DNA of 64,000 bases from Crambe crambe (taxonomy: Eukaryota > Porifera > Demospongiae > Poecilosclerida > Crambeidae), in assembly GCA_963924555.1 (NCBI GenBank), contig OZ004583.1, positions 4,559,501-4,623,500 of the forward strand. Reading direction: 5' to 3'. Below are positions 1-23,660 of this stretch, piece by piece. The stretch's first letter is position 1. Each line of letters begins with the position of its first letter. The position numbers were made by a program, and so were the translations under genes. The notes under the pieces were generated by a model. The model was not told where the DNA came from. It made no database searches and saw nothing but the letters and a program-made list of their open reading frames with translations.

Positions 1-640
1 GCTTTAGTTTATAGCTAGTACAGAATGTGCAGGACACTAGATCCTATATGGATAAATTGAAAAGTAGAATGTGAATTGAGAAAAACTAAATGTAATTTTT
101 ATGGCAATAAGTATAGGAAGCTGTATATCAAAAATCAGCCATTTATTCCAAGTGGTCATTGAGATGCAACGCAGTTTACCTTGAGAATGGAATCAGTCAT
201 AACATCAGTCATTTTGATTGGTCCTCCTTCATTTTTTGTGTATGTAGTACTATTCTGATACTTAATAACGTGGTGCAAGTTAGAAATTACTATCATGAAT
301 AGTTTTTAAGTTAATCTTCCCTAGCAACCATGTGTGGGCGGAGTGTGCCTGCACCCTTAAAGAGACATAGAATGGGTGTATAAGGCTCACATTTAGGAAG
401 AAGGGATAGCCTAACCTGACTATACTAGCACATGGATGAAACACCTTAGAATATAGAGTGAGGTATTTAGCTATTCATAATGTTACCTTTTAAGGAATCA
501 CCTTTTCCACACAATTTTTCATCCACTGAGATAAATAAACAAAAAAATGTATAAACTTATAAATATATACTGTGCTATAGGAAAAGAAAGGTGAATTTTT
601 AACTGAGCCCAAATAATGGCTTCCAGTTTTGTACTCCTAT
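1..640. other. A/T-rich stretch without recognised gene
   Basis: No open frame of coding character and no repeat structure was recognised here. The stretch lies 3' of the Roc-COR exon on the minus strand. If that exon is spliced at its donor (exon end at 672) this would be intron. If the stop just after it is used, it would be 3' UTR and intergenic DNA. Confidence 0.4.
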
Positions 641-642
641 AG

Positions 643-2828
643 CTAGCTAGCTGTCAGTAATTTGTACTCACCTTTAGGTCTGAACCAGACCAGGTTATCT
701 TCTGATAAAATACAGATTTCATGCTCATTGCTGCAGTACATGAAGAAATCCTCTTCCACATAGCCTGGATCTTTCACACGATGATTCAATGAACACAAGT
801 TACACTTGCAGCAGAAGTAATGACGAGTCTTGGAACTCTCGTAGTGAAGATCCTTAATGGAAGACTTGATGCTCTTGTCGATGGCGTTGCGAATATCATT
901 GCATAGATAGCTGATGTGAGCACGTCTGGACTTGTGTCCAGATGGGTGTAGAATGACTTGCAAATGGGAGGCGAAAAATTTCAGAGTTACTCTGTCTTCT
1001 GAGTCACTGACACTAAAGGATATTTGGTCCCTGAATATGAAGTCAGGAAGAAGTTTCCATTTGAGCCAGCTTTTGAAAGAAGTAGTGAGCAAAGTGTTTA
1101 TTAAAACACCGAATATCCCCTTAGGGCAATGATTGCATTTGAACTCAATGTAGAGTGTGGGGATACTGGATACTTTGTCAGGAGTTTGCGATGCCTGGAC
1201 ATGATTAAGGACACATGGGATGAAATACCGGTCTTCTTTATCTCTTGATGTGGTGATTTGGGATATGATGCGGAGATGCACCAGTAATTGCAAGAATGAA
1301 TTTGGATCGATATTATCCTCTACTTTAATGACTGTTTTAAAAACTGAAGCTGAAATGATGCCCCTGAATTTAAAATCAGCAAATTCTCGACGGCAAAGTC
1401 GGTTAGAAGAAAAAGTCTCCACTATGAGATCTGTGACTTTATTGAATAACACTTGAGGTTCTCGCACGACAATATTATGCAAGCCTTTCACAGGAAAATA
1501 CTTGATCCTTCCAATTCGGGTGTGGAGAAATCGCAATAGGTGCTTGACTTGGTCTCTACTGATGCCATACTGAGCAGCTAGAGCCACACATTCATCAAGG
1601 GAAATGATGCTCTTCTTCATATTCTCCAAATCAAGGCTGAACTGCAAGTAACTGATCGGATAGTCTATGGTAAACTCATCTCGACCTATCACTATTTCAC
1701 TGACTCGTGATCGGATGCATTCAAAGTCTTTTTCGCCCTCATCGTAGTTATTGACAGTAAACATCAGCCTATTAGAATGTTGGTCAGCATACTGAACTAA
1801 ATCTTCATATCCATGCTTATTGATCAATTCATTCAACTGTCGATCAATCTCACAGATTTTCTCTTCAGCATTGGAACCAAGGAGATCCTTGTGTGTGCCT
1901 ACTATAAAAACAAGAGGTTGGTGGGTCTTGACGTCACTTTGTCTAGTTATATCCATGGCATCGACACTAGCAAGGCACTGCAGCAGAGCATCCTCTGTGC
2001 TGATGGAAGATATGTATGAATTAGTTATCGTGCCATCCTTTTTTCGATACTCTATTTTAAATTTGCTGCGAATATCTTGATCGATGCGAAAGAGGAAGAA
2101 GAATATGGATGGTCCAGATATCAGGAGAGGCACCATCTCTTGGAACTCCACTTGGCCACCAGTATCAGTCAAGTAAATTGAATAGGAATTTTTTAGATAC
2201 CTTTGAACTTTATCGAAACCATATTTTTGTATTACAGATGAAATATTATGTATTGGAGGTGGTGGTTGCAAGAGCTGTCTCGTTGAGATATCTGCTCCAT
2301 CACTTGTAAACATTTCTGAAATGATAGAATCACTGGTTTGACATGGATTCATAGAATGTGATGCTACTGGTTGAGGTGGAGCAGTCATAGTGGTGCTAGT
2401 CTGCACTGGTGATATACTCTCACTAGCAGTGGATGATGCAGGAGGAGGCAGTGTTTTGGGTGTCATTGCTTTTGGTATGATATTTATGCTTTCCTTGTTC
2501 ATTTGCCTCACAACAGACACCTCAAACTCGGCTTCGGACCACTCCCCAGCCTTTAGTAGAACTGTAACTGATGCATGTGTGGCAGAAGAATCTTCTATTC
2601 CAACGTCCACTATAACTACAGGCTCACAGACACCAGTGGAGGGCGAGTAGTCTTTTAGATTTTTGCGAACAAGGCGAGTGATTAACGAACTCTTTCCAGA
2701 ACCAGGAGAACCTAGAAAGACGGAATGGACTAATTTTCGTTTTATCACTCCAGATTTGTTGATGGCTTCTTGAACTACTTCAAGGAATTTTTTTTCATCT
2801 ATTTCATCCTGACCAGAATCATGGTCTT
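643..2828 (-). CDS. Exon 16: Roc-type GTPase with COR domain and Cys-rich tail
   Basis: This is one large exon (acceptor acttgtag, begins 2828). Counting from the GTG-encoded Val 27 codons in (2748-2746), the P-loop GSPGSGKS is at residues 13-20, a possible switch-I Thr is in STGV at about 37-40, the G3 motif DTGGQ is at 195-199 and the G4 motif THKD is at 285-288. A Pro/Ser/Thr-rich insert at about 93-165 separates G2 and G3. A COR-like segment follows at about 360-500 ([18 protein letters not shown] is typical), then a tail with [10 protein letters not shown]. Roc-COR proteins bind GTP and dimerise through COR; this layout is common in sponge and cnidarian death-domain genes. The frame stops at 643, but AAAG|gtgagta just before (exon end 672, phase 1) is a strong donor like those of the preceding exons. 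Further 3' exons outside the window are therefore likely. Confidence 0.85.
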
Positions 2829-5800
2829 CTACAAGTATAGTAAGAAACCATTATTAACAATTACAAAATCTGCTTATTTTTCTCAGCTAACATGATAAAT
2901 TATAAAATGTTTCTGGACTGATAACACACTGATATGAAATACTACTTAAATAATTACAGTGGACTCTCTCTAATGCGACCACCTTTGGGGCCAGCAGAAG
3001 TGTCCTGATTAGAAGGGTGGCCTCATTTCTGGGGTGTCACTGTGTAGTGTCCTCAGGGGTGACCTCATTTCAAGGATTCCGATTAGAGGGAGTTTACTGT
3101 ACATTGTACTAGGGCAATATACAACATTTGACAACAAGCTAATCAAGGAGCAAGCCATCAGTGACAGTGAAGCAATTCCAATTCTACACTCAGGTCCGAG
3201 AGCCCAGATAAACCATAGCTTCTTACATAGCAGCTCTCTGTGAGCTTGGTAAACATAGCAGTTACAGAACTACTGTGACACTTCTCTGTATGGGAGTCTT
3301 CTCCTTCCTTAGTGATGCCGATGGTATAGCATTCCAGAGGTTAGCAATGAAAGGTAAGCAGCTGGATCACAAGATGTCATGTGCAATTAATTCAGCATCA
3401 TGTGCGTGCATATAAAATCAATTTCACCTACCATGCAGGATTTTTTTCGGAGATAAAATATTCACCTACATATAATTGGTTAATGGTGGGGCTAGTACTT
3501 TACTATGTCCCATGCCTATCTTCAATTACCTCTCGAAAAGAGTCAGAGTCAAAGGAATTAGTTACAATCAATATCCATAAGGGGTTATTGATGACAAGTA
3601 TAACGGGTTACCATTTGGCACACACAATCTTTCGGCATTTGATAGACACCACCTTATTGCAAGGACTGAATGCATGGTGTCTCATATTCTTGTAACTGGT
3701 TCTACATTAGAAAACCAACTGGCAAATCTAGACACTAAGCTAGAGATGGCAGGACTACACCTCAACCAAGGGAAGTGCTCCTAATTTGGAGTAGCTAACG
3801 ATCCATTGCTTTCCCAAGTCAGGAGATTGATCCAGCTTGAATTACCCAGATCAGATTATAAGCCCTACTTCCTACTTCTCGAAAAAAGAAGAAAAAGATA
3901 TGTACACTACTGCACTATAATCTGAAGCTACCCGACGTATACGTAGGGATTATTGGCTGGATATACAGAACAAAGATTGATCCCATTTCCATCCTTGTTG
4001 TTTCCTTACTTAACGTCTCTTACTTGTGCCGGGTCCTCTTTTCCCTCTCTTTTATAGTTTTATGTATAGAGTTCATTCTTTTATGTGGACAGATGAAAGA
4101 AGAATAGTTCTCCAATAGCATAGCAGCCAAATGATTATATTATCAGTGAGTCAAAGTGAAGTGTTAGTGTTGAGGTATATTTGGAGGTCAAAGATGCAGA
4201 CGAATCTGAATTGAGTCTACTGGTAGATGGATTGTTGAATCTAAAATCCCCGAGTTGATACAGTAGTCTATGATCATTATCTAGAGCTGGCTAGCTAAAG
4301 CTTAGCCAGCTGAGTAATAATATTATGATTTCAAATAATTGGATATCAAATACATGCACATGCGTATTATAGAAAAAAATGGCTTCCAATAATTAAGTTA
4401 GTTGAGTAGCTATTGTGCTCCGTTGTGTCTCCTTTTACATCGACTCTTTCGAGGATTGACGAGTACAAAAGATTGTAGCTGGTAGAATTTGGAGTGGATT
4501 TATTCAGATCATAGCTGTAGCTTGAGTGGTTTGAAAGATATGGTAGTCTAAGAAGAAGAAGAAGAAGAAGAATAGAGAAGAAGGATCCAGCGATTTACCT
4601 GCTTGCCATATTTCTGAAACGGTAAGCTCCCTGTTCCTGAAACTTGGTCTGCACTTAGTAGTAGTCTCTAGTAGCTTTAAGTTGGGGAACTAGAATTTCG
4701 CTTCTGTATTAGTCTATATGCACGCAGCCGTCTACATCTTCCGTAAACACCCCATGGGGTTAGGAAAATGAAGAGATGAAAATAATCAGTGCGGAAGTTT
4801 TATTGCTTCAAGAAGCAGCTGCTACAACACCATGTGATGAATGTTAATATACACACTTAGCTCATGTCCTCTAACTTGCACTGATAATACATATTTGTGT
4901 ATATGAGAATTAATATCAGCTGACCAGAGGCCAATATTTCAGCTTGAAAATATATTCAGTTCAAATTTGACTGGAGCAGCAGCTAGTTTCTGAAGATGAG
5001 GACAATATTCCACTGACTCAGGCCAGCCTGCCAAATGTTATTAAATGTACAATTTTAAGCAAGATGTTGTAAGTTGTTAGAGCTTGTTAAAGTTTACAAG
5101 CTACATACAAAATGTACATGAAGCCTTTTCAAACCATGAAATCCTGAATGAAGTTGCAAGCAGTGGTAGCAGAAGGCAAGCATACGATAGCAGAGTTGAA
5201 TTCAAATTCATCACTTCCTGTGTAGTTTAACAAGGCTTGGGTCTTGTTAGGACCAAGTGCTGGGCACAGCATGGGTATTCACCACCCAACATGTCTCACC
5301 CAAGCAGGATGGGGTGGGGCATGACCTAATATAGCAACCATATCAGTTGCTAGGGGGGCATTGCAGCAAAGCACTGATTGTGGGGGCGAGCCCCGTGTCC
5401 AGCACAGGTCCCAATCCTCATAGTTAGGTACAAGGGGTATAGAAGAACGGTATACTATATCGTAGGCAAGTAACATGATATTATTTACAAAATCATACAA
5501 CCTCATCTGGATGTTTGGAAGGAGATGTAGACCATGTTCTACATCGAAACAAGTAAGGGAAAAAGCATTTCGTGAAATGAAAAAAAGATGTAGGGATGAC
5601 CACTGCTCAAAAAAGTAAGGAAACAAGAAGGATGGAAATGGGATCAATCTTTGTTCTGTATATCCAGCCAACAATCCCTACATATACGTACATTACTACA
5701 CTATAATCTGAAGTTACCCGACGTATATGTAGGGATTGTTGGCTGGATATACAGAACAAAGATTGATCCCATTTCCGTCCTTCTTGTTTCCTTACTTTTT

Positions 5801-8800
5801 TGAGCAGTGGTCATCCCTACATCTTTTTTTCATTTCACGAAATGCTTTTTCCCTTACTTGTTCCTGGTCTTTTTTCCTCTCTTTTATGGTTTTAGCTATG
5901 ATTAGAGTTCATTCTTCTATGTGTATGCAGGGACAGATGAAAGAAGTTCTCCAATAGTTCTCCAATAGCATACCAGCCCAATCATTATCGAGTCAAGGTG
6001 TTGTGTTATTGAGCCATACTTGGAGGTCGAAGATGCTGAAATAGAGTCTACCGTGGTGAATCTAAATCCCCGAATCGATACAGTAGTCTATCATCATCAT
6101 TATCCAGAGCTAGAGCTAGCTAGCTAGCTAGAGACAGCTGAGTAATATTATGATTTCGAATAATTGGATATTCAAATACATGCGCATGCGTATTATAGAA
6201 AAGATGGCTTCCTAATTGAATTAGTCGAGTGCTGTGCTCCATAGTGTCTCCTTTTTCATCGATTCTTTCGAGGATCAACGAGTAGAAAAGATCGTAGTTG
6301 GTAGAATTTGGAGTGGATTTGTCCAGAAATCATGGCTGTAGCTTGAGTGGTTCGAGAGATAATTATGGTTGTCTAAGAATAATAATAATAATAATAATAG
6401 AGAAGAAGAAGAATATAGCGATTTACCTGCTTGCCGTATTTCTGAAACGGTAAGCTCCCTGGTCCTGAAACTTGGTCTGCACATTGTAGTAGGCTCTAGT
6501 AGACTGGATAATCATTCACAGTAGCTTTCGTTAGGTCTAAGTGGGAGAACTAGAATTTCACTTTAGTATTAGTCTATAGGCGGCGCGTGCGGCTGTCCGA
6601 GTCATCCCTACATAGAGAGTGCTACCGCACTCTCTGATTAGAACAGTAAATTTGCTTCATGACAAGTTCAGATTCATACCCTTGAGCCTGGTATCCAAGC
6701 AATACAAATGCAAACATTTTCTCCCAATAAGTTGAAGTTGATTAGTGTGCTGACCTGCTTTGAAATATTAGTTAGTGTGTGTATTTGCTTGTCCTTTAAT
6801 CAACACCCTATCAACATTCTGAGGGTACCATGATGCTTGACTCGTAAATTTTGCTTTGTTCAAGAGTTACGATACTTTATGTTTACCTCAAAGACTGCTG
6901 CGATAAATTAAGGAAGGGAAATCTACTAATGAAACAAGTCAGTAGACTTCTAACTGACATGAGAGTGTGGCAAAGCTAAGAAGCAACTGTCTATACAGTG
7001 GCATAGAAGACGATTTAGAGACCCTTTGGATTTTAGGACCTTTTAGATTTTAGACAAAATGAAGAGGATGAAAATTAAGCTCTCAAATCACCAAGCTGGA
7101 CTGGCCCTTATGGGGTAGCTATATTTGCTAACTTGTTACCACATACACAATATTCACATACTTACAGATTTAAAATTCATAAACTTTCTGTACATAAATA
7201 TGCACAGTATGTGAAACGTAATGAAACCATGCATGACTGTAATAGCAGCAACATTACCCCTTTAAGTTTCAATGCTAATAGGCAGTTATTGGTGTGTGGA
7301 AGTCTCACCTTTGACATACTTGGTGGTCACATCCTCAGCAAGTGCATGGTAACCTGCATCCCTGAGTGCCCTGGCCAATTTCTTCCAATCAATAGCAGGG
7401 TTAAGACGCACCACTATCTCAGCTAAGGCTTGCTTTGGTGTAGTATTCTCACTAGACTTGATTCTTTCTACTAGATGTAGATGTTGTGCCACTTTCTCCC
7501 AATCTTCCACTTCCTCCAACACCTTGTTTATTCTCTCAATGCTGAAGTTGGAATCTGTCAATCATGAAATGAAGATGTACAGGTATAATTATTCCAACAT
7601 GATTACTCAAAAACTAAGTGACTATCCCATGCATTGTAGAATGAGAATTAGAATAGTATTGTGCACATAGCTACACATCATACATGAGTCAATAAATTTC
7701 CCCTACAGCATGTGCCACCTGTACTGATCATTCTGGCTATAGCTGTAATGGATCACTAAAAACAACTAACTCACCTCTAGTACAATAATCACAAGCTTTA
7801 ATGGCCACATCAACTTCCACAACTATAATATCTTCTCCATAGAGTGCAGATGTAGCAATTGCCTCCCAAGTAGGTTGATCTGGATGGCTATTGATGTAAC
7901 ACATGGCAGCTGCCTTCACTTGCTGCTCCTCACTGGGTATGGACTCAATACGCTCCATTAGAAAATAGAATGGTTTGTAGCCATCGTCTTCCACCCAGCA
8001 CATAATTTCCAATGGTGACTCCTTTGCACTCATCAGTACAGTCGTCAGGTTCTCAACTGTCATTGTGGGGTCTGCAGGGGAAACTTGATTACAGCTAGAA
8101 CTGAATGGAAATAATGACCTATGACACAATAGCTACTTTAATCACTTAAAGGGAATTGTCTATGGAAGGGATAGTTTGTGTCTTGAAACCATAGAGTCAT
8201 TTTGGATTCCACCGTATCCCATATGAACCATACACTGCAATTTAGTTGCTATGGCATGTACACATGCTATTGAGATCTTACAACTTTAACAAAGCATGGA
8301 AATGGTCTTTAAGAAACTTTTTTGATAGAGGATCTACAAAGTTGAATCGAAGTGATCCATGTATTATGCTGCTTGAGAATAAGTGTTCTAAAATCCATAA
8401 TCAAAAGGCAAATTGTATTGCAGCCATACAGCTAGCTGATGGGATGTAATAGTTGACAGAGTCAGTCAATAACCAAGTTCCATCAGTTACACTTAATACA
8501 GTTCAATTAGATATTAGCTAGCACTATTAGAGTCTAAAGTTAGGAGAGGGATATGTGTTTTGGAATAAGGGGATTTCCCCTAAATTACCTGTCACTTGCA
8601 CTGGCTCAGCAAAGTTTCTGATGCTGTCAGCATACTTGCATTGCCCAAATGAACGTGCATCCATTCTGCTTATGAGTTCTCTCCATGTAGTAATAACTCT
8701 AGCAGTCAGGAATTCTTCCAAAGAGTAGTAGTAGTAATCCCTTACCAAAAGTACATATTTCTGCACATTCTCAACAGAGAAATCTGATCCTAAAAGAGAA

Positions 8801-11800
8801 TAATAATATTACTTAGTCGGGATTCTAAGCATGCAATGTATGTATGCAGGACCTAACTTTTTAAAACTCCAGGAACTATAATTCTAAGTGTCAGTTCTGA
8901 TATTAGATAAGTATGAATGCTATTAATGCTACTATTATTATGCATATGAGAAATTTTATTCCTTAGGTTATATAGGCTAATGAGATTCTAGTGGCCACAT
9001 GGTCATACCAAAAAGTTATGTCCTGATATAGTCCACTTAGATTTCACTTGATAAGTCAAAAGATAACTCAGAGTTTCTAAACTATATCCAGCCATTCACA
9101 TCAAGATCATTACATTCATGGATCCTATTATGGATCATGTCAATACTACTAGAATTTCTTACACTGTTAGCTTACAAAGTATCAGCAAGAAATGTATCTC
9201 TCACCATTAGGAAGGTACTTTGATGCCTGTTCAGCTGCAATCTCCTCCCCACAGTGAGACAGTGCTGTCACCACATTCCCCCAGGTCACATAGGGGCACA
9301 CATGGACTAGGTGATGAACGAGGGCTCCTTTCTGATCGTGAGCAGACTTGATCTGTGATATAGTATGGTCAGCGATCTCCATGTACTTTGATATGGTCTT
9401 CCAGTCCTCCACCTCCTTCAATATCTCACTTAACAACTCAACAGTAAATGTTGGATCTGCTAAGAGGAAAAAGTAGTCTCAAGTGTATGCCCATATGACT
9501 ACGTATGTCGTACTCATCACTTTATTTATATGTATCATATAAAACTAAATTTTCATGGTTCTGCGATAGAAGTGTGAACCTCCAATTATTTTTCAATACC
9601 ACCAAATCTGCAAAAATTTATCCCATGAAATATGGTAGCTTACTGTCCCCTGACCTTTTGAGAAGTTAGTCATGGCACTCTCAGCAGCCTTCATCTCTCC
9701 AACTTCATAGAGCAGTAGGGATAATAACTTCCAAGAGGGACAACCATGACTGGTTATATAAAGAGAGGCAGCAGCTTGTATCTTCTCCTCTCCACTTAGG
9801 GATGAGATGCGGGAGTAAACATACTCAGGACAGCCACCAAAAGAATCCTCCTGTTTCTCCAGCACTGATGACACATCTCCCTTTATCTGCATGAGTACTG
9901 CTGCTACATTCTCCATACTCAAGGTGGATTCTACAGGAGTAAACACAGCAAGTTGCATGACATGGATCAGTAGTACAACCATGCAGGTTAGGTGCTATTC
10001 AGATGGCTGCATGTATGAATGAATCACACTCATCAAGACTTAGTGAAGTCTGCATATGCTCATGCAGTCATCCCTGTATGTCTCATGCAAACATTTCTCA
10101 TAAGATAATGCATGGAGGTAAAGTATAGAGCTCATAAAGTTCATATTGTGTAACATTTTATTGTCAAGGAGCAAAACTTTTTTGTGGATCTTAAAAATAT
10201 GAAATTAAAAGTTAAAATAAATACTCAAATCTTCCTACCAGTGCCACCTGGCTGGGTACTGATATTAATTGTCAGTACTGAATCTGCAGTAAGTTTTCTT
10301 GTGACTGTTAATTGCTTAGCCTTGCCATTACATTCTGGGTGCACATTATTTAGAGTACTGTGCAGAATTTAACTTGGATTGATATTTGATACAAATGTAG
10401 ACATGCATAGAGGCCGAGTTTTAAGTATGGTGAGCATTAATTGACTATAGTCAGAGCAGCAAGAAATCCAGAACACACAAATGAATATGCACATATGTAT
10501 GAATATAGCCTGCTGCATAAGGGGTAGGTGTCAAGATTTGTTAACTAGATGGTCAATCTGCAAAAGTTGTACAGTGGAACCTCCAATAAAGGACCCTCCA
10601 GGAAAAGGACAACCTCCCAACAAAGGATGCTCTTTGGGGTCCCTTTCCCATAGCATTAGTACATTTTTAACCTCTGAAAAAAGGATAACCTCTCTGCAAA
10701 AACAAAGTAGCTGATCCCAAAGTGTCCTTTACTCGGAGGTTCCACTGTAATGAAAATTGAGCTCCTCCATTACAAATTACTATGTAGTATCTATAGGTGG
10801 GCATTAATATAATGGGTCATGATGGTTTTCTTGGCAATGGACTCTTCCAGATGATCATCACCCTGACATGCTTCAAACAATGTTCAAATTTATGCAACTT
10901 TCTCAGGACTTCAAGCTAAAGTAAGGTCACACACATCAGGTCACACACAGAGAGACCTGAACTCTGGGCTATAATAAATCAGCTAACAATACAGTCATGC
11001 ATGATGATCATACCTTGTGGTGGCTCAGCAAACTTTCGAATGTTATCAGCAACACTCCGTGGTCCTTCATAACGACGTTCATTTTCTATTACATTGAGAG
11101 CCCAAATAAGTCTCCTCCATGAAGGAGGTGCTCCCTTTCCTGCTAGCCAGGCATTGAGAACCAATTCAACACTAGATGCAGAAGCATCCTTCACTGTTAA
11201 TCGTTTTTTCAATGATGCTGCCTCTATCTCCAGCATTTGTGGAATGTACTTGGTGATGTTAGGTAGAGTCAACTGTGGGACTGCATAGGAACACAAAATA
11301 GTAGAACACATGATTACTACATGTGTCAGTCAGAACATAATACCAGACAGTTCATCATTGCAGTGCATACCATGGTTAGTACATCACTGCTCACTAAACA
11401 TAGGGATAGTACATTACTACACACTGTACTTCACTCCACACCATATAGGAATAGTACTTCAGGATTTTATGTGGGGGGAGAATTATAGGGAGGTTTGTGA
11501 GGTTATAGGGGGGCAGGAAGTCTTGATGTCACTATTATTTTAGACCTTGGTTACATGTGATTTGTGTATGTAATATTAGCAAGTTTAACTTTGATGTGTG
11601 TACACTGAAAGTATGTGCAACACATTTACATAGTTCTCTTGATACACACCCCTAAGGAGATGCTGAAGAACCTGAACACTTTAGTTAATATCTGTCTTCT
11701 ATTGTTGTTGGAATAGAAAGACAGACCACAGATGAAGATAGAAAAAAATTGAGAGAAAAAATCTTGATTGAACTTATTAATGAAAATAGTTAGTGATAGA

Positions 11801-14800
11801 ACTAACAGATAATGTATGGGTGTGTGGAATAAAAGGAAGACTAGTTGTGTGATTTTACAAGGGGGCAACTGAGGGGAGAAACCCTCTTGAAAGAATATAG
11901 GGATAGTACATCACCGCACAACATATAGGGATAGTACATCACCGCACAACATATAGGGATAGTACATCACTGCACACCATATAGGGATAGTACATCACTG
12001 CACACCATATAGGGACAGTACATCACTGCACACCATATAAGGATAGTACATCACTGCACACCATATAGGGACAGTACATCACTGCACACCATATAGGGAC
12101 AGTACATCACTACACACCATATAGGGATAGTACATCACTGCACACCATATAGGGACAGTACATCACTGCACACCATAAGGATAGTACATCACTGCACACC
12201 ATATAGGGACAGTACATCACTGCACACCATATAGGGACAGTACATCACTACACACCATATATAGGGATTGTACATCACTGCACACTAGTACATCACTGCA
12301 CACCATATAGGGACAGTACGTCACTACACACCATATAGGGACAGTACGTCACTACACACCATATAGGGACAGTACATCACTACACACCATATAGGGACAG
12401 TACGTCACTACACACCATATAGGCACTGCACACCATATAGGGACAGTACGTCACTGCACACCACATAGGGACAGTACGTCACTGCACACCATATAGGGAC
12501 AGTACGTCACTGCACACCATATAGGGACAGTACGTCACTACACACCATATAGGGACAGTACGTCACTACACACCATATAGGGACAGTACGTCACTGCATA
12601 CCATATAGGGACAGTACGTCACTGCACACCATATAGGGACAGTACGTCACTGCACACCATAATAGGGATTTTACGTCACTGCACACCATATAGGGATAGT
12701 ACATCACTACACACCATATAGGGATAGTACATCACTGCACACCATATAGGGATAGTACATCACTGCACACCATATAGGGATAGTACATCACTGCACACCA
12801 TATAGGGATAGTACATCACTGCACACCATATAGGGATAGTACATCACTGCACACCATATAGGGATAGTACATCACTACACACCATATAGGGATAGTACAC
12901 CATATAGGGAGACTCTCAGCTCTTCCAATTATGAGCATTTCAGGTAATTCTTAAATAATAAAGCTTTATAACTTTTAGGGAAGTCATGAACATAATTAGT
13001 AAAAGGTAATGATACTTCAAAAAAAAAATTAAGTGATAATTTTTATAAACCACTTACTCTGATCAGGATGGACTGGTGTCACCACTTGGATCACAGGAGG
13101 AGAAGGACCCATTTGGAACACAGGAGGAGAAGGACCCACTTGGAACACAGGAGGAGGAGCTGATAAGACCTATAAATAATTATGGTAAAACAGTAACTTG
13201 AATCCAACATATCTTTCCTAAATTGTTTCATGAAACATCAAAACCTTACAGTTTATCAATTGAGTTATTGACTGACCTCTGATCTGAAGGGAAATGGTGG
13301 ATTGGTCCACTGAGTGATGCGAGGGTTTTGCTGGAAGAGAGATGGAGAGGAAAAGGAAGTGGGTGCAGACCTCACTAATTGGGTGGGATGAGTCGGGCCC
13401 TGTACATGTGATGGAAGGGACAGGGGTTGAGTGGAGAATGAGGAAGGTGGTGAGGTGAGTGAAGGAGGCATACATCCAGTGAAGTGAGTAGGTTGGAGGG
13501 ACACCTGTAACAAGTTTAATTGAAGTCATGTATCATACATAGACCACCAAGTTATAAAGAATATTCTATTTCTAATTTCATTCTGTGTATGCTTCAATAT
13601 TATTTCCAATATCTCAAAACTTGTACTTTTCACATTATGAAATGCACAATGTTAAAATTTAGACGTTGTATTTCCACACGATGTGCATAGTGTACAAATT
13701 ATGTCCATCCCTTGAGTCTCTCATTCATAACTTAAAGCTTTTCCATTACAACTTGATTTACTATGTATAAGGATCTCCTCCTCCCCCCTCCCACCAACCT
13801 CGTCCTGGATTGAAAATAGGGAACCAGGTGTCTTAGGTTTATGTTCTGTGTCTATTACTACTTACAGTTATCTGGTGACCCTTGGGACTTGTCCTGGTTA
13901 CAGGGGGTTACAGGGGTGGCAAGTTACCCAAGATACGGAAGTGGTTAGAACTTTATATCCCTCCCTCCCGCCTGGACTTTTGTAAGTTTGTCTAATGGGG
14001 CCTGGTCTCAGTTTAGAGATCAGGTAGGTGTGGTTGGCACCTAATGGGTGCCTGTGGGCATATAAGTACTGGACATGAAGTCTATTATTCACTTAAATTT
14101 ATGTATGTATGTATGTCCATAAAAATCACACACTGGTTAGGAGTTTCACAACTCCATTGTACTTTTAAAGAGAGCATCCAATCTCCACAAAACAAAGATG
14201 GTCATAGAGAGGTGATGATAAAACATGCATAATGTGTAGACCAGTAAGTATCATATGCTAATTTCTAATTAGAGCACACTAATACTATAAAAAGGGGGGG
14301 GGGGGCTAGGGACCCAATATGATTCTTATAAGATGTGTTCAATTTTGGAACGTATTAACCAATTCCATACTTGAGTAATTTCCTTCCTTATTGCATGGTG
14401 TGGGTCTGAAATTTGCTATGGAATGAGAATCTTTGAGCATGCATAACTCATGAATGTAAGTCTTATTAGCCCGAACTTGGATATTGTCAATATGCAAACT
14501 GTTATGCTTACCCTAGGGACCTGTCCTGATTAGAGGGGTGGTCTCATTTTGTGGGTAGATTTGTGTTGGAAATAGCTACTTAAATATTGGGACATTTACA
14601 AGTGACCTTATAGGGTACGTGGTCTAATTTCCGTGGTCCAGATTAGAGGGAGTTCACTCATGCTACAAAAACCTTTGTAACATTAGTTTATTAGGAGTAT
14701 GAAAATACATGTACTTACAAAGATAACACAATGTATGGGACTTCAGAATGTACATCTAAGCATACATAGCCTAAAATTAAGTCTTTGTAGTAGTGTATGC

Positions 14801-17800
14801 TCCAAGAACCTTTGCTACATGAATATGATTTGATTTCTGGGAGTGTGCAAAGCAAATATAAGCAGAACTCTATCAAAGTTTAGCCATAATATATGGGACT
14901 TAGGGAATTTCCCCACTTCCATATGCATGATCATACTGAGAAGCTTATCAATCTCACAAGTATGCATATTGGTCAGATTGAAGTGAATAGAACATGAAAT
15001 CAGGGCTATAGCTGCAGAGACCATATGGATGACCAGTGAAGTGGGGTGTGTGACCTACCTGAGGTGGGTGTGGTTGGTATGAAGGAGGAGGTTGTAACGT
15101 AGGATCAAGTGTTGGAGGAAAACCAGAAGGAGTAAGAAGTCTTGGAGGAGGGTCTGAAAGGATAAAGAGTAAACAAAAAGAGGTTGTCTCTATGGAATTT
15201 GTGTCCTTATTAAGTAAGAACTATTTTGATTTCTGTTCCCATCCAACTTTCAAATTTCCTCTTCTAACTGGTGGACTTTGATCTTACTAAGGCCCGGAGC
15301 CTCCTCTCATGAGTAGTAAAAACCACACCCAATAGTTACGCCCACCTGCAGATTAGTCTATCCTTAAAATGAATAATGAAGTCTATGAAGACTTATAGAA
15401 CCCTGGCCAATCATAAAGCAGCTGCATCACTATAAATGAGATATGTGGCTGGTTAACAGTGCATGAGCTATAGGTGAAACCCCTGGCATGTAATAATTAA
15501 AGGGTGTGGAGGTAATTATAACTGAAGCTCAGAAAGAGCTAGAGGAGAGACCTTGTAATCTATAACTGACCTGGTCTTTTGGGCTGCATACTAGCCTTTA
15601 TAGGCTGACAGACGGGACAATCTGAACGATGGCAGTTCCTCCAGTGAGTAATGATTTGCCGTGAAGATACACAATGAGGATCTAAAGGTGAGTTTGTCAC
15701 ACATTACACTATTCTTACAGTGATTTCACTTCATGTAGTATTAATGTAATTCCCTCACATTGACAGTTGCGTCCATCTTGACAGGAAGTCATGTGCTTCA
15801 ACACATTCCTCATGGTCTTGCAATGGGGCAGTGAACACGGTGTATAGTTCCCACTAATCTGCTGTTCCTGCTCTCTCCTCTGACACTTGTGAGCATGCAG
15901 CAAGAGTACAAGCTGCTGTTGGATCTGTTTCCTTTTCTCTGGATTACCTATTGAAGGAGTGGATGAGTTGAATTGTATGTAGTTTGGCATTGATAAATCA
16001 AGTATCAGAGAGTATGTAATGTAGGGATGACCTCGTATGCACCATGGAGGTAATACTAGGGCGATGTGCAACATTTGATGTGACAGTGAACAAGTGAGCA
16101 AGTAATGAGCATGACCTTTCCTATAACCTTTGGACCTGAGGCTCCAAGTGCTTGGTGATGCTAGTGTCAACTGTGAGAACGTCATGATGACTGCATGTGC
16201 CAGTCAGAAGGCAGTATAGTGCATACCATGGTTAGTAGTACATGACTGCACACCATAATAAGGACAGTATATCACTTTCAATCAGGTAGAATCACATTTC
16301 AGGTGAGTCTTAATTACAAAAGTCTTATATTAATCGAAAATAATAGTGAAGTCATTAACATAAGCAAGGAAATGAAATTAAGTGAGAGTACAATAGTTAT
16401 CAACCACTTACTCTGACCAGTGTCACCACTTGGAACACAGGAAGAGGAGGAGGAGGAGGAGGAGGAGGAGGCTGATAAAATCTAAACGTGGCAAAATAGC
16501 ATTATTCTTTCTTTTGGAAATATGTTTCATGCCATCATTATATGACTACTCTGCAGTGCTATATGGAGAGTAGTCATAACCTAACTAGTAGGTCATCCTC
16601 TACTTGGTGATCTTTTGTCTAAGATAGTAAGTTATAAACAGTGAAAGAACAGCAGCTGCCAGGTAGTAGCTATCAACTGTGGCAAATGTTCAATTGTGTC
16701 AACCCTTTACCAACTTCAACAGTAACAATCAAGGCTAGCATGCAATGGATCAAGGGAACTATGGTGAATGTACGCCAGGTTGATAAGTAGCAACATAGCT
16801 CGAGGCAGGTCATGCTCTTGTGTATAACTATTTGTGCATGTTACTAATAAGATGTACATTCCATAGATAGATAGCACCTCCACCCTTGGGACCTGTCAAT
16901 GTACTCACAAAGACTCAGTCATGGCCAACACAATGTATAAGCTTATGGTATGCAGTTGGTCATATTGAAGTGGGTAGAAATGAAATCAGACTTTGCACAT
17001 TAAAAGCCTATTATGTTATCCTCCAATGCTTTTCAAATCTCCCTGTTATGCTCCAGATTATGCTCCCACACTTCACATATCATACTTAATTTATAACACA
17101 ATAACAAAATCACAATAATAATAAAAAACGCATTTAGTGCCTCATTGTAATCCTCTAAAGGTCAAAGGTGCTTATTCAACCAACAAGTTGGACATTATTA
17201 TCATTCACATCACTAGCTGATTTTCATGCACAAATTTTTTCTCATGCACAAAAAAACAACAACAACAAAAAAACAACAACAAACAAAAACAAACAACAAA
17301 TACCCTATCATTGCAGCATATCCTTAATGCTTCAGCATACCTATTATGCTCAAGTTATGTCGACATATTGTGCAAAGTTTTAGCTATAGCTGCAGGATGT
17401 GGTTATAAAGGGTATCGTGCTTTTGAATTAAGAAACTTTAAGGGTCCAGATTATTCTTAGTATATGTATAGAATCCATTTATCAGGAGTGTGTGCACATG
17501 ATTGGAAAAGTTGTTCAGTTGGAGAAATTGAAATGGGAAGGGGAGCAGTCAATCTCCACAAAACAAAGGTCATGGAGAGATGATGACACAATACACTTAA
17601 ACTGCTCTAGTCAGCAAGAGTAGCTAATTGGAGCAAGTGAAGTGAGCCCCCAACTAGGGAGTTATATCATTGGAGCAAGTGAAGTGAGCCCCACACTAGG
17701 GAGTTATATCATTGGAGCAAGTGAAGTGAGCCCCCCACTAAGGAGTTATATCATTGGAGTTTCTTTGCGTGACAACCTTGATGACCTTGGGCTAATCTGA

Positions 17801-18791
17801 GCATGCATGCTTGCCCCACAATGCTTGCATTTCCCTAGTAACAATGAGATGGCTCCAGGACTTAATTCACAACTTTGTCTATTCAGTACATGGTTTGTGT
17901 GTGACTTACGTACCTGTGAGTTGCTAGGTGAGTGTGATTGGTGTGGAGGATGTGATGAAGGATGAGGTTGTAGTGGAGGAGCTGGAGGTGAAGCAGAGAC
18001 TCCTTCAGGGAGACAAGTGGGAGTGAGGGTTTCTGATGATGGGTCTGGAGGGTTGTAAGGCATATGAGAAGTCAGGGGGTGACAATATAATATTGAGAAA
18101 TAATGAGATGATAAGGTGGCAGTATAAGTGCATAGTAATAGAACACAGATTAGTTATATCCTGCTCAACCTCACCTTCAAGCCTCAGTCGTTTAGTAAAA
18201 GATTCTTTACTCACATCAGATTGATCAACCTCTAAATAAGGAAATGATAAGATAATCATAACTTGGTGAAGCCCTTCTACTCCACCATACAGGAAGAAAG
18301 TGATTATTGAAAATTGAAAATTACTAAAATGGGAATGAAGCCATGTGATCTCTCCGGCTATCCATTATTGTTTATAGAGTATTGTAGCCAGGGGTGAAAC
18401 ACTCGAGAGACAGCAAGTAACTAGATTCTCCTTGATGGCAGTAGTTGTATAATAGCTAGCTAGCTATGTAGATGTCACAAACAACGTTCCACAACCAGTT
18501 AATACCTTTATCAGCTGCTCTAGTCTTAGTCTTGGGTCCAGGGTTCACTTCCACATCCCCAGAGAGTAACAGGATACTTATAAGGAACAATACCGGCCTG
18601 CTACGTCCTCTGGAGCGGGACTCTCCCACTACCCTCCTCCATCTCAAGCAGTTGTGCAAGTGGTGTTTGATAGCTGTACGATCATAGCTTATCTTGTTAA
18701 CTTGCCACTCCCCTTCATCACACCATTGTCGCAGCAGAGACACAATCAAAGCAAACCGAAAGAATAATACGCTACCAGAACAAGATGACAT
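643..18791 (-). CDS. 2A-leader / TAZ1 / six death-fold / Roc-COR GTPase gene (16-exon model)
   Basis: This gene model was assembled by eye from splice consensus sites and codon phase. Exons in transcript order are 18791-18506, 18231-18175, 18044-17914, 16481-16412, 15947-15759, 15681-15571, 15153-15059, 13504-13277, 13169-13058, 11280-11014, 9930-9655, 9456-9205, 8789-8589, 8071-7775, 7554-7309 and 2828-643. Every donor/acceptor pair is GT-AG and every junction is phase-compatible, giving about 1,660 codons up to a last donor at 672. The product would have a 2A-type leader, Ser/Pro linkers, one TAZ1 zinc finger, more Pro-rich linker, six death-fold-like domains and a Roc-COR GTPase. Death-fold and Roc-COR modules normally act in oligomeric signalling scaffolds, and TAZ1 of CBP/p300 binds transactivation domains. 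A combined role linking cytoplasmic signalling to transcription is inference only. The largest intron, about 4.5 kb (2829-7308), is full of repeats. Transcripts have not been seen, so two adjoining genes remain possible. Confidence 0.68.
2955..3101. mobile_element. Small MITE with TACAGT termini
   Basis: The left end reads tacagtggactctctctaat and the right end, reverse-complemented, reads tacagtaaactccctctaat. These make terminal inverted repeats of about 20 bp around roughly 147 bp. A related but incomplete copy is at 14515-14658 (gtcctgattagaggggtggtc ... gattagagggagttcac). It lies in the large intron before the Roc-COR exon. Confidence 0.6.
3905..4740. repeat. Direct repeat copy 1 (pairs with 5691-6590)
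   Basis: This stretch and 5691-6590 are diverged direct copies. Shared blocks include cgacgtatacgtagggatta / cgacgtatatgtagggattg, ctgaaacggtaagctccctg, and the sequence around gcacatgcgtattatagaaa. Each copy holds a different simple repeat at the same place: (agaag)n at 4551-4572 and (aat)n at 6380-6401. No coding content was found. Confidence 0.7.
5551..5860. repeat. Large palindrome with 140-bp arms
   Basis: Arms 5551-5690 and 5721-5860 are nearly perfect reverse complements (start aagtaagggaaaaagcattt, end aaatgctttttcccttactt) around a loop of about 30 bp. Open frames read outward from both arms begin identically, which is only a consequence of the palindrome. The right arm is also the start of the direct repeat shared with 3905-4740. 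Confidence 0.85.
5691..6590. repeat. Direct repeat copy 2
   Basis: This is the second copy of the repeat at 3905-4740, with the same order of blocks to about gtattagtctata. A short hairpin (tacatagagagtgctaccgcactctct, about 6611) follows. A similar piece recurs at 26583-26613, suggesting a tiny dispersed element. Confidence 0.65.
7309..7554 (-). CDS. Exon 15: death domain 6
   Basis: This is a 246-bp exon, phase 1 in and out (acceptor gattgacag, donor GTCAAAG|gtgaga). It encodes about 81 residues with [39 protein letters not shown] and [20 protein letters not shown], a typical six-helix death-domain pattern with the conserved Trp residues. Its last base G plus the first two bases of the next exon (AA) give Glu, so it splices in frame to the Roc-COR exon across an intron of about 4.5 kb. 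The relic copy at 21969-22226 is intact and four residues longer, between the EDW helix and the RIK motif. Confidence 0.82.
7775..8071 (-). CDS. Exon 14: death-fold-like domain 5
   Basis: This is a 297-bp exon, phase 1 in and out (acceptor cccctgcag, donor ACTAGAG|gtgagt). It encodes about 98 residues: [15 protein letters not shown], then [37 protein letters not shown], and [13 protein letters not shown] at the end. It is the same module type as domain 2, as the EExQxxAAAxxYIxSH and PxW motifs show. It continues the strict phase 1-1 pattern. No enzymatic motif was seen. Confidence 0.72.
8589..8789 (-). CDS. Exon 13: short death-fold-like module 4
   Basis: This is a 201-bp exon, phase 1 in and out (acceptor cttttag, donor ACAG|gtaattta). 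It encodes about 66 residues with [15 protein letters not shown], a YYYY run, [15 protein letters not shown] and [15 protein letters not shown]. It is shorter than a complete death domain and ends like domain 1 (SIRNFAEP versus NIRKFAEP), so it seems to be a copy of that module with its middle part missing. Whether it still folds is unclear. Confidence 0.66.
9205..9456 (-). CDS. Exon 12: death domain 3
   Basis: This is a 252-bp exon, phase 1 in and out (acceptor cttagcag, donor CCTAATG|gtgaga). It encodes about 83 residues with the best death-domain pattern of the set: [18 protein letters not shown] (helices 1-3 with the typical Trp), [38 protein letters not shown] and a final KYLPN. Death-domain helix 5-6 signatures (W..v..AL...G....A) are clear. 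The corresponding exon in the upstream relic is also intact, which suggests this is the most conserved module of the array. Confidence 0.82.
9655..9930 (-). CDS. Exon 11: death-fold-like domain 2
   Basis: This is a 276-bp exon, phase 1 in and out (acceptor tcctgtag, donor TCAAAAG|gtcagg). It encodes about 91 residues with [15 protein letters not shown] at the start, then [19 protein letters not shown] and [20 protein letters not shown] at the end. The C-terminal half (PxW plus amphipathic helices) is like domain 5, which has [16 protein letters not shown] at the same place, so the two are probably internal duplicates. A divergent death-fold module is the best reading; no catalytic motif is present. 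Confidence 0.72.
10570..10749. mobile_element. Pogo/Tigger-type MITE
   Basis: Ends tacagtggaacctccaataa and (reverse complement of the right end) tacagtggaacctccgagta form TIRs of about 25 bp beginning CAGTGGAACC and flanked by TA, as usual for pogo/Tigger elements. It is 180 bp long with no coding capacity, and lies in the intron between death domains 1 and 2. The same terminal family is at 34042, next to a Tigger transposase. Confidence 0.75.
11014..11280 (-). CDS. Exon 10: death-fold-like domain 1
   Basis: This is a 267-bp exon, phase 1 in and out (acceptor ctatgcag, donor CCACAAG|gtatga). It encodes about 88 residues beginning [16 protein letters not shown], with [13 protein letters not shown] in the second half and [11 protein letters not shown] at the end. 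The helical pattern and the Trp in the PSWRRL helix resemble other death-fold modules in this gene and its relic. Assignment to the death-domain superfamily rests on pattern and on the clearer neighbours (domains 3 and 6). The motif NIRKFAEP recurs at the end of domain 4. Death-fold domains mediate homotypic oligomerisation in apoptosis and innate immune complexes. Confidence 0.72.
11880..12912. repeat. 28-bp minisatellite, about 36 copies
   Basis: The unit is ATAGGGAYAGTACRTCACTG plus CACACCAT, about 28 bp, repeated in tandem for roughly 1 kb. Copies differ mainly at tacAtcac versus tacGtcac, with the G form concentrated in the middle (about 12310-12690), and at gAtag versus gAcag. Isolated units extend left to about 11395. 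The array lies in the intron between exon 9 and death domain 1. Degenerate single units occur in the equivalent introns at 16220-16275 and 24645-24725. Confidence 0.92.
13058..13169 (-). CDS. Exon 9: short Pro-rich repeats
   Basis: This is a 112-bp exon, phase 0 in and phase 1 out (acceptor tttatag, donor CAGA|gtaagt). It encodes three imperfect copies of a [14 protein letters not shown] unit and ends in TPVHPDQ. Repeats of about 33 bp are visible at DNA level (cacaggaggagaaggaccca). The last base joins TC of the next exon to form Ile, entering death domain 1. It is a relative of exon 4. Confidence 0.62.
13277..13504 (-). CDS. Exon 8: Pro/Ser/Thr-rich linker
   Basis: This is a 228-bp exon, phase 0 at both ends (acceptor gttacag, donor TCAGAG|gtcagt). 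It encodes about 76 residues rich in Pro, Ser and Thr, including [20 protein letters not shown] and [16 protein letters not shown]. No domain was recognised. A shifted frame is also open across the exon, but only this one keeps phase with exons 7 and 9. It is probably disordered. Confidence 0.58.
13560..15058. other. Intron between exons 7 and 8 with repeat pieces
   Basis: No further exon was recognised. Pieces of this intron recur in the intron at 16500-17900: atgtactcacaaagac.. with ..ttggtcatattgaagtgg, and caatctccacaaaacaaag. This shows the pro-rich module was duplicated with its introns. A G-rich run is at 14293-14306 and a fragment of the TACAGT MITE family at 14515-14658. Confidence 0.55.
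15059..15153 (-). CDS. Exon 7: Pro-rich linker
   Basis: This is a 95-bp exon, phase 1 in and phase 0 out, between acceptor ctttcag and donor CCTCAG|gtaggt. It encodes [18 protein letters not shown] and then a [11 protein letters not shown] stretch. Its sequence, length and phases are like those of exon 3. It directly follows TAZ1 and is predicted to be a flexible linker. Confidence 0.65.
15571..15681 (-). CDS. Exon 6: TAZ1 zinc finger, last part
   Basis: This 111-bp exon is phase 1 in and out (acceptor acctttag, donor CCAG|gtcagt). It continues TAZ1 with [16 protein letters not shown] and [12 protein letters not shown]. Its PHC closes the second zinc site, and HWRNC...DCPVC is the complete third HCCC site. 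With exon 5 all twelve metal ligands are present, so the fold is probably functional. An intron interrupts the domain after CQ, so the segment was acquired as genomic DNA or kept its ancestral introns, not as a retrocopy. Confidence 0.88.
15759..15947 (-). CDS. Exon 5: TAZ1 zinc finger, first part
   Basis: This 189-bp exon is phase 1 at both ends (acceptor ttcaatag, donor CAAT|gtgagg). It encodes the first two thirds of a TAZ1 domain. Visible landmarks are [19 protein letters not shown], the zinc site of H-x3-C plus C-x4-C (HAHKC...PCSLPHC), then [13 protein letters not shown] with [11 protein letters not shown] opening the second site. In CBP/p300 this domain forms a four-helix scaffold with three HCCC zinc sites that binds acidic transactivation domains. 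The match to animal CBP/p300 TAZ1 is strong in length and in all metal ligands. No KIX, bromodomain or HAT exon was found nearby, so this is not an ordinary CBP/p300 gene. Confidence 0.88.
16140..16300 (-). pseudogene. Remnant of a death-domain-1 acceptor and intron
   Basis: Read on the minus strand, tctcacagttgacactagca matches the start of death domain 1 (cccacagttgactctaccta at 11280). The bases on its intron side match the intron before death domain 1, including one degenerate minisatellite unit (gtacatgactgcacaccata). Only the first few codons survive. It marks the place where the duplicated module now runs into TAZ1 instead of a death domain. Confidence 0.55.
16412..16481 (-). CDS. Exon 4: Ser-repeat linker before TAZ1
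   Basis: This is a 70-bp exon, phase 0 in and phase 1 out. A TCC repeat makes a run of about nine Ser, followed by CVPSGDTGQ. The other frame would be poly-Pro, but only the Ser frame joins both neighbours. It is related to exon 9 (13058-13169), with the same donor CAGA|gtaagtgg and a similar acceptor region. The repeat is prone to length change, so the exact frame is less certain than for its neighbours. Confidence 0.5.
17632..17757. repeat. Three tandem copies of a 55-bp unit
   Basis: The unit attggagcaagtgaagtgag plus ccccacactagggagttatatc is repeated about three times inside the intron between exons 3 and 4. It is followed by cacaatgcttgcatttccct, which also occurs in the repeats at 45061-45335, so this is part of a dispersed family. 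Confidence 0.75.
17914..18044 (-). CDS. Exon 3: Pro/Ser-rich linker
   Basis: This is a 131-bp exon with acceptor ctccag and donor TCACAG|gtacgt, phase 1 in and phase 0 out. It encodes a Pro/Ser/His-rich segment starting [10 protein letters not shown] and containing [16 protein letters not shown]. It resembles exon 7 (15059-15153), which starts [14 protein letters not shown], so the two look like copies of one duplicated exon. A second strong donor four bases downstream (gtac|gtaagt) could give a phase-1 variant. Confidence 0.65.
18175..18231 (-). CDS. Exon 2: short linker exon
   Basis: This 57-bp exon lies between acceptor tttag (exon begins 18231) and donor GAAG|gtgagg. It is phase 1 at both ends and encodes a short charged stretch containing FTKRLRLE. 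The joined codon from exon 1 (G|AG) is Glu. It has no recognisable domain; the KRLR cluster is basic. Exon size and flanking phases are the only support. Confidence 0.55.
18506..18791 (-). CDS. Exon 1: leader with 2A-like ribosome-skipping motif
   Basis: I chose the ATG at 18791-18789, the first in-frame one outside the neighbouring MITE. It gives 95 codons plus one base, then the donor AAAG|gtatta (phase 1). The N-terminus has a hydrophobic run ([13 protein letters not shown], residues about 8-20). A basic Arg-rich stretch follows at about 50-65, then a second hydrophobic run ([11 protein letters not shown]) running straight into GDVEVNPGP at residues 78-86. That is the core D(V/I)ExNPG|P motif of 2A peptides. 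In known cases it makes the ribosome skip the Gly-Pro bond and release the upstream peptide. Here it would release about 85 residues and start the main protein at Pro86. Similar leaders are known from sea urchin and sponge NLR-type proteins and from non-LTR retrotransposons. An in-frame ATG at 18884-18882 inside the MITE would lengthen the leader. A retrotransposon fragment is the main alternative, but the phase-1 donor joins exon 2 correctly. Confidence 0.65.
18534..18560 (-). other. 2A-like motif GDVEVNPG|P
   Basis: Nine codons read GDVEVNPGP, with the predicted skip between GGA (18539-18537) and CCC (18536-18534). The preceding residues are strongly hydrophobic (ISILLLS), as expected for the part of a 2A peptide that lies in the ribosome exit tunnel. 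All core residues (D, E, N, P, G, P) are intact. Confidence 0.8.
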
Positions 18792-18804
18792 GCCTGCCGA
18801 GATG

Positions 18805-19288
18805 TAGTCTGGCGTCGCCAGCCCAGCTTTTCTTCTTTTTGGGGGGGACGGGGAAGAAAAGTGGTCTGGTGGCTCTAGCATCAACTACTTGTGTCGCCCG
18901 CGCGCGCAGCTATACCTGCGTCCCAATCAGATTGCTCTATTCAGTCACGTGAAGTAGTATTAATGTTGGCGAGACACACCCACTATTTATTCCAGGTTGG
19001 CAGAGCTAGAGCTATGGAGAGTAACCAAGAACTGTGTTTAAAGAGCTAGGAATACCTGGCCTGAAGCCTGAACGGCTGAAAGTTGTATCAGCGATTTTCA
19101 AGGGCGATGTGTTCGCAATTCTACCTACTGGCTTCGGAAAATTATTCAACACGCATGTATATTGCAATTTAAATTATTTTTGAGAGAGCGCGCGGGCGTC
19201 ACAGGTAGTTTATGCTAGAGCTCCCAGACCACTTTTCTTCCCCGTCCCCAAAAAAAAGAAGAAAAGCTGGGCTGGCGACGCCAGACTA
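18805..19288. mobile_element. MITE A next to the gene start
   Basis: Terminal inverted repeats of about 65-70 bp are present: left tagtctggcgtcgccagccc and right, reverse-complemented, the same, extending through agcttttcttctttttgggg. The copy is flanked by GCCGAGATG at 18796-18804 and 19289-19297, which looks like a target duplication. It ends only 14 bp from the proposed ATG of exon 1. No coding capacity of its own. Confidence 0.8.
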
Positions 19289-23595: not shown

Positions 23596-23660
23596 CTGCT
23601 AGGAAGAAAATCAAGTGTTAACTTAGATTCAACTACTCATTACTTTATATGTACCCTGAC

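Follow-up and report, generated by a model that had tools for sequence, protein, structure and literature searches.

The genome of the sponge Crambe crambe contains a gene that joins a 2A-type leader, the TAZ1 zinc finger of a CBP-type coactivator, an array of death-fold-like domains and a Roc-COR GTPase. As far as genomic sequence can establish it, the structure of this chimeric gene is genuine. The explanation that we favor, and that we consider reasonably probable, is that a ROCO-type gene took in a TAZ1 fragment of the CBP gene from its own genome as an in-frame, skippable cassette, and that the likeliest role of the captured domain is that of a bait or adaptor.

The gene was found in a stretch of 64,000 nucleotides (the window; C5:4559501-4623500, where C5 is contig OZ004583.1) of a 143-Mb genome in 119 contigs. 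Coordinates without a contig are window positions. The gene in the window is called copy A, and five paralogues, B to F, were read in part.

Gene structure

Exon borders were taken from the sequence and checked against paralogues, and phases and stop codons were checked on the joined exons. As the preliminary description had proposed, 16 exons on the minus strand, from 18791 to 672, can be joined with GT-AG sites at all junctions and with phases that chain. When a further exon 17 (487..525, phase 1-1, minus strand), which is conserved in a paralogue, is included, the product has 1,671 codons and no stops. The exon borders recur in copies B-F, over the parts of these that were fetched. The earlier proposal of a single chimeric gene is also the best reading by far: the exons flanking TAZ1 are conserved in copies that lack it, phases fit through the inserted cassette, and the zinc ligands and a low dN/dS have been kept.

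The order along the gene is 2A leader, proline-rich exons, two TAZ1 exons, further proline-rich exons, six array domains (DD1-DD6) and Roc-COR, all on the minus strand. Exon 1 (18506..18791) encodes a leader of 95 amino acids with two hydrophobic stretches and a 2A-like end; its DNA is 99.3% identical in copy D and 97.6% identical in copy E. Exon 2 (e2; 18175..18231, phase 1-1) is present in copies C and E and falls below the threshold used in B, D and F. The proline- and serine-rich exon 3 (pro1; 17914..18044, phase 1-0) is 97% identical in E, with an identical donor. The cassette comprises the next four exons: exon 4 (ppp1; 16412..16481, phase 0-1), a diverged duplicate of ppp2 with a triplet repeat; exon 5 (TAZa; 15759..15947, phase 1-1), the first part of TAZ1, which is supported by the zf-TAZ profile, the paralogues and CBP; exon 6 (TAZb; 15571..15681, phase 1-1), the second part, whose intron position matches the CBP gene; and exon 7 (pro2; 15059..15153, phase 1-0). 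Like exon 7, the proline-rich exons 8 (pro3; 13277..13504, phase 0-0) and 9 (ppp2; 13058..13169, phase 0-1) were placed by phases and paralogues. The array is encoded by exons 10 to 15, namely DD1 (11014..11280), DD2 (9655..9930), DD3 (9205..9456), DD4 (8589..8789), DD5 (7775..8071) and DD6 (7309..7554), and is followed by the Roc-COR exon 16 (672..2828, 719 codons). All six DD exons and the Roc-COR exon are of phase 1-1.

The span in the preliminary description ran to 643. A stop at this position as the natural gene end was rejected because exon 16 has a donor at 672/671 (CTAAAG/gtgagtac), and both this donor and exon 17 are conserved in a paralogue (C5:6251532 and C5:6251689-6251727, respectively). 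The exon therefore probably ends at 672. The gene runs on past the window, where the next exon (C5:4558815-4558561, 255 nt, phase 1-1) encodes a protein segment that is 95% identical in the paralogue; it has no Pfam match and by eye resembles one more array domain. A terminal exon of the gene was not found.

TAZa most likely starts at 15947, at an acceptor common to copies A, B and C. An exon that begins at 16170 and reads into TAZa was rejected, as a frame of that length exists in copy A only (162 amino acids, versus 105 in B and C). By eye, B and C have TGA in place of the CGA of copy A in this upstream frame; copy C has moreover lost 25 nt within it, and part of the frame is a dispersed repeat.

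The TAZ1 cassette and its probable source

The joined TAZ1 exons score 72.9 bits against the zf-TAZ profile, for which the curated cut-off is 25, and match the TAZ1 structures of mammalian CBP and p300 in the PDB. All 12 of the residues that we take to be zinc ligands, in three HCCC sites, are present in an alignment with PDB 1L8C and with the CBP gene on contig C20 of the same genome. The TAZ profile marks eight places in the genome, three of which belong to the family described here: copy A in the window, copy B (C5:6186795) and copy C (C5:6260698).

The C20 CBP gene is 87% identical to copy A over TAZa and 79% over TAZb at the protein level. DNA homology between the two starts at 15942, inside what is apparently a longer CBP exon, and continues to ~15397, so that it spans TAZa, TAZb and part of the next intron. 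The intron inside TAZ1 has the same position and phase as in CBP, and its sequence is poorly conserved. Because the homology bridges one intron and runs into the next, a genomic piece, and not an mRNA, was copied. TAZ1 is thus a genomic fragment of the CBP gene of this genome, with the gene on C20 as its probable source. Other domains of CBP (KIX, bromodomain, HAT and TAZ2) have no Pfam match in the scanned leader, TAZ1 with its upstream frame, DD1-6 and Roc-COR.

The cassette ppp1-TAZa-TAZb-pro2 is 465 nt long and runs from phase 0 to phase 0, and therefore could be skipped in frame. In copies A, B and C alike, each TAZ1 exon is flanked by canonical splice sites and by matching phases. Upstream of TAZa, on the minus strand, the stretch 15948..16260 is probably intronic; it holds a remnant of the 5' end of DD1 with its intron and a dispersed-repeat piece, after which comes the CBP breakpoint at ~15942. 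Farther upstream is ppp1, the diverged twin of ppp2. Compared with the DD1 regions in A, B, C and E, the DD1 remnant of copies A and B differs by 22-26%, and compared with that in D by 47-48%; the corresponding values for the remnant in copy C are 34-36% and 52%. The dispersed repeat, of ~50 bp, has 21 matches, three of which are the TAZ1 copies.

Other captured domains were sought at the corresponding position in copies B, C, E and F, and none of the 10 open frames scanned, from 37 (at least 75 amino acids, at most eight per stretch), matched Pfam at E 0.1. Separately, the ppp2-DD1 intron contains a 28-bp tandem repeat with ~33 registers (11785-12930), which is expanded in copy B too.

Selection on TAZ1 and age of the join

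Between copy A and the C20 CBP gene, TAZa differs by 15.0 synonymous and 9.0 nonsynonymous changes (dS 0.626, dN 0.062, dN/dS 0.10), and TAZb by 6.5 and 9.5, respectively (dS 0.345, dN 0.122, dN/dS 0.35). Because CBP itself is expected to be constrained, a chimera branch that had been neutral since the split would give a ratio of ~0.5, in comparison with the 0.10-0.35 found. A neutral branch of 0.25 per site was simulated, starting from the present CBP and on the assumptions that TAZ1 descends directly from the C20 gene and has resided in the chimeric gene since the split. It produced a mean of 41 amino-acid changes, versus 16 observed (one of which is a deletion), and none of 4,000 runs kept the frame and the 12 ligands with 18 or fewer amino-acid changes. 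With shorter neutral branches, 0.1% of runs passed at 0.15 per site, 1.25% at 0.1, 13% at 0.05 and 42% at 0.02. A long neutral history of TAZ1 is therefore strongly disfavored under this model, and a short one passes in 13-42% of runs. Over much of its history, selection has very probably maintained TAZ1.

Comparisons among the three TAZ1 copies are less informative. TAZa differs by two to six changes, TAZb by one to three (none synonymous) and the neighboring introns by one to five, which is about equal, and the exon changes are too few for showing recent constraint. Substitution density among A, B and C (varying columns: 13 of 447 in exons versus 55 of 775 in non-coding sequence, and 8 of 198 before TAZa) was set aside as coding evidence, because the non-coding figure includes poorly aligned ends and the cleaner introns show no difference. 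Gaps in the cassette are multiples of three in all four rows within coding exons and in 4 of 15 outside them; this is weak coding evidence because two of the four coding gaps sit in a triplet repeat.

The join of TAZ1 to the gene seems old, although the argument is a loose one. Against the ppp1 intron of the cassette, the ppp2 introns show a difference of 30-32% in A, B, C and F and of 51-52% in D and E. The former value is close to the 28-30% difference between CBP and the cassette over the intron that follows TAZb (53-55% over the intron within TAZ1), which suggests an old join. However, divergence among the family's own ppp2 introns is 2-13% inside the group of A, B, C and F and 32-38% when this group is compared with D and E, so that the cassette flanks could come from an already diverged copy.

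The death-fold-like array

The array consists of three domain types that are repeated, such that DD1-3 (alpha, beta and gamma) recur as DD4-6. In the preliminary description all six were called death-fold domains, and this assignment has support for four of them, at the level of weak profile matches and structure prediction. Pfam Death matches DD3 (18.1 bits) and DD6 (21.9 bits, E 2e-4), both under the cut-off of 22.6, and all seven members of the gamma type match at E ≤0.1, the two in the window (DD3 and DD6) falling below the cut-off. The model of DD2 (pLDDT 87) is a predicted six-helix bundle whose best ten PDB matches are chains of PYD, DD and CARD type, rank 11 being a designed protein; TM scores among the matches listed reach 0.70, with a best E of 0.29 and 0 of 198 matches at E 0.001. 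DD5 is assigned through its homology to DD2. DD1, DD2, DD4 and DD5 have no match to a death-fold profile in Pfam. DD1 and DD4 are without such support: the AlphaFold2 model of DD1 was too poor to use (pLDDT 55.5), and comparison of DD1/DD4 profiles with those of DD2/DD5 and DD3/DD6 gave no support, so that a death fold in these two is unproven.

Exon lengths in the array vary among copies by multiples of three. Of the 37 pairs of copies compared over four of these exons, 23 have dN/dS above 1 (DD1, 3 of 10; DD2, 12 of 15; DD5, 4 of 6; DD6, 4 of 6), whereas for DD3 it is below 1 in all nine pairs in which it is defined; DD4 was outside this comparison. With few pairs, the pattern would fit diversifying surfaces for recognition or assembly.

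The Roc-COR exon

The COR-A profile matches the Roc-COR exon with 41.3 bits (cut-off 35.3), and this match is also over the cut-off in the genome search. The Roc part reaches 23.1 bits in Pfam, under the cut-off of 27, and contains THKD and another 13-residue motif stretch, both of which we take to be G-motifs. Relative to a paralogue at C5:6249 kb, dS is 0.39 and dN is 0.067, which argues from substitution patterns that Roc-COR is under constraint. Among the 120 relatives listed of 503, with the window's own excluded, identities are 41-88%. Pfam gave no kinase profile match in this exon, and a search of solved structures with it gave no matches at E 0.01. The DD6-Roc-COR intron carries two copies, ~1.8 kb apart, of a repeated element (3898-6502).

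A paralogue family on one contig

By homology searches, the gene is one of about 19 close copies on C5. A search with the Roc-COR exon gave 66 matches (61 of 487 candidates scored), including 19 loci on C5 with at least 76% identity, the window among them. A DD3 search gave 19 full-length matches with at least 83% identity, none of them outside C5, and the leader has 33 full or partial matches genome-wide. These counts are lower bounds. TAZ1 is found near 3 of the 19 DD3 loci. The preliminary description had placed the layout in an early animal; an invention at that stage is not supported by this distribution, which was established for one family in one genome.

Among the copies read, those that lack TAZ1 are D, which was read to DD6, and E and F, which were read to DD3. 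D and E run from leader and proline-rich exons to DD1. Copy D has the leader, parts of pro1 and pro2, pro3, part of ppp2 and DD1-6; copy E has the leader, e2, pro1, pro3, part of ppp2 and DD1-3; and copy F has the leader, part of ppp2 and DD1-3, its remaining linker exons not being found at the threshold used. Two of the three TAZ1 copies have damaged Roc-COR exons. Copy B has lost the family leader after 20 codons and has only the first half of Roc-COR in the stretch fetched (to C5:6210000), and in copy C, Roc-COR requires three frames.

One of the DD3 matches belongs to a second DD1-DD6 array in the window (21970-24587, minus strand), the pieces of which have 58-83% protein identity and in which DD1, DD2 and DD5 are each split over two frames. 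No leader or Roc-COR match was found beside it, and it is probably a decayed partial tandem copy. Genome-wide, COR-A matches at 150 places, 149 of them over the cut-off (150 of 339 candidates scored; a lower bound that includes some partial matches), with clusters on C1, C3, C5, C8, C9 and C11, which points to a very large ROCO expansion in this genome.

Elsewhere in the window are transposon pieces at 34887-35582, 48546-48983 and 51110-51388 (all plus strand), with matches to Tc5/CENP-B type DNA-binding, to DDE_1 endonuclease and, below the cut-off, to an integrase core. An open frame at 34344-34808 (minus strand) matches the HIRAN domain (27.4 bits, cut-off 24.7).

The leader and its 2A motif

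Hydrophobic runs span residues 3-22 and 64-82 of the leader, and its last residues, DVEVNPGP, are followed by KTKTRAADK. Copy A thus combines the 2A pattern D(V/I)ExNPGP with an upstream hydrophobic run; the motif is also found in copies C, D, E and F and has been lost from the family leader of B. Sea urchin NLRs are described as having N-terminal sequences that combine a signal sequence with 2A, by which the product is split between the cytosol and the secretory path (PMC4981915).

Three further observations concern this region or its motif. Copy B has another 2A motif, LLLILAGDVETNPGP, at ~C5:6176220 (plus strand), which is unlike that of the family leader and lies ~1.2 kb before the leader remnant. 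At C13:2953180-2954434 the 2A part of the leader has four repeated matches, each containing one TGA. By eye, an inverted repeat of ~80 bp lies immediately 5' of the start codon, at 18800-19290, and might represent a small transposon that carries the 5' region.

Relation to known systems

The gene shares with CBP/p300 coactivators a TAZ1 domain with the same internal intron position and 12 zinc ligands, and a probable source on C20. Unlike them, it has TAZ1 alone among the exons scanned, with no KIX, bromodomain, HAT or second TAZ there. Like the ROCO proteins (DAPK1, MASL1 and LRRK-type), it has putative Roc G-motifs followed by COR-A; it differs in its 2A leader, in an exon-encoded death-fold-like array that replaces LRRs, and in the captured TAZ1. 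In plant NLRs with integrated decoys, a domain that is a target in the host has been moved into a switch protein belonging to a clustered family, and in this the Crambe gene would be similar. Unlike these NLRs, it has Roc-COR instead of NB-ARC or NACHT (neither of which matches in Pfam among the scanned exons), so that its product would at most work like an integrated-decoy receptor.

Among the 120 proteins listed, of 646 TAZ1 matches of similar length, none has Death, Roc or COR, and most have KIX. With the TAZa frame as query, among the 120 matches listed of 470 and the window's own match (96%) aside, none covers more than 68% of the query. A literature search of titles and abstracts, with subscription papers mostly outside its scope, returned neither a TAZ1-death-Roc-COR protein nor a sponge ROCO expansion.

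The nearest published patterns found are those of Amphimedon and of brown algae. In Amphimedon, proteins with Death-like/TRADD-N domains are described as greatly expanded, with shuffled partner domains (PMC8195603). That family resembles the present one as a large sponge family with N-terminal death-like domains and shuffled partners; it differs in that TRADD-N has no match in the exons scanned here, and Roc-COR and TAZ1 are not among the partners named in the sections of that paper drawn on here (PMC8195603). The LRR-ROCOs of brown algae are likewise reported as an exon-shuffled, diversifying family, and the likeness lies in this exon-modular organization (PMC11378527). Sea urchin NLRs, as presented in the cited source, share a hydrophobic N-terminus that ends in a 2A motif, here with putative recoding activity, on an expanded receptor-like family; they have NACHT and LRR, as opposed to the death-fold-like array and Roc-COR here (PMC4981915).

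Proposed origin and role

We propose that a ROCO-type gene with a 2A leader, a proline-rich linker, a death-fold-like array and Roc-COR gained a CBP fragment consisting of TAZ1 and an intron. This fragment would have joined an in-frame, skippable cassette between the linker and the array, which is now at three loci. Translation presumably begins at the leader. Through the 2A motif, a large share of the product would be released into the cytosol free of the hydrophobic leader, and a read-through product may enter the ER. Roc-COR could serve as a dimeric switch under GTP control, through which the array becomes exposed for higher-order assembly, and TAZ1 as an exchangeable recognition module for activation-domain-like ligands of the kind bound by CBP TAZ1. 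The ligands recruited to the switch might be the sponge's own transactivators or foreign proteins that target CBP, and alternative splicing could yield forms with and without the cassette. On this evidence, the most likely use of TAZ1 is as a binding module that can be exchanged on a receptor-like GTPase scaffold.

A more specific version of this proposal is speculative, and we hold it to be doubtful. It would make the gene an animal counterpart of plant decoys: a receptor-like, 2A-delivered ROCO with TAZ1 as bait, to which proteins that evolved for seizing CBP would bind in place of CBP and so trigger death-fold assembly, with splicing toggling the bait.

The CBP fragment might instead be a passenger in an intron region that is normally skipped, the product being an ordinary protein of leader, proline-rich linker, array and Roc-COR and TAZ1 a decaying fossil. 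Skipping of the cassette would indeed leave a protein of the copy E type in frame, and two of the three TAZ1 copies are damaged elsewhere in the gene; the similar divergence of cassette exons and introns among A, B and C and the scarcity of TAZ1 among the DD3 loci are also in keeping with a passenger. However, nonsynonymous change relative to CBP is far under the neutral expectation, with every ligand kept and no stop, and splice sites and phases around both TAZ1 exons are intact in all three copies. We therefore regard a passenger as rather unlikely.

With the same gene structure, TAZ1 could serve another role, by bringing transcription factors to the scaffold or the scaffold to chromatin. 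The close identity of TAZa and TAZb to CBP and the PDB matches to CBP/p300 TAZ1 are consistent with such a function, whereas models of KIX, bromodomain and acetyltransferase are unmatched in the exons scanned, and the 2A leader and hydrophobic runs point to the cytosol or ER, by analogy with the sequences described in sea urchin (PMC4981915). As the main role it is unlikely in our view. The preliminary description had seen in the gene a direct route to transcription factors. This is one of several possible roles and is not favored, because the 2A leader, with which a good part of the product should end up in the cytosol, together with the receptor-like expansion of the family, makes a cytosolic bait or adaptor at least as likely.

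Finally, it is improbable that there are two genes, with TAZ1 on a short transcript of its own that lies within a DD-Roc-COR gene or upstream of it: the 162-amino-acid frame of copy A does include TAZa, and two introns of more than 1.5 kb and the 28-bp tandem repeat do separate TAZ1 from DD1, but the frame is shorter in B and C and deleted in part in C, TAZb ends in the phase that pro2 needs, pro2 (in D), pro3 (in D and E) and ppp2 (in D, E and F) occur whole or in part in copies without TAZ1, and the upstream leader is that of the family.

The capture of a TAZ1 cassette by a ROCO-type gene, as favored here, would be a transfer from a general coactivator into an expanding family of switch proteins. 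The probable source, the breakpoint and copies free of the insert are all present in one genome, which makes the event open to dating and to tests of expression and binding. If TAZ1 is used, the gene would provide either a CBP-based bait in an animal immune-type protein, for which we know of no earlier candidate, or a physical link between a death-type GTPase scaffold and CBP's partners.
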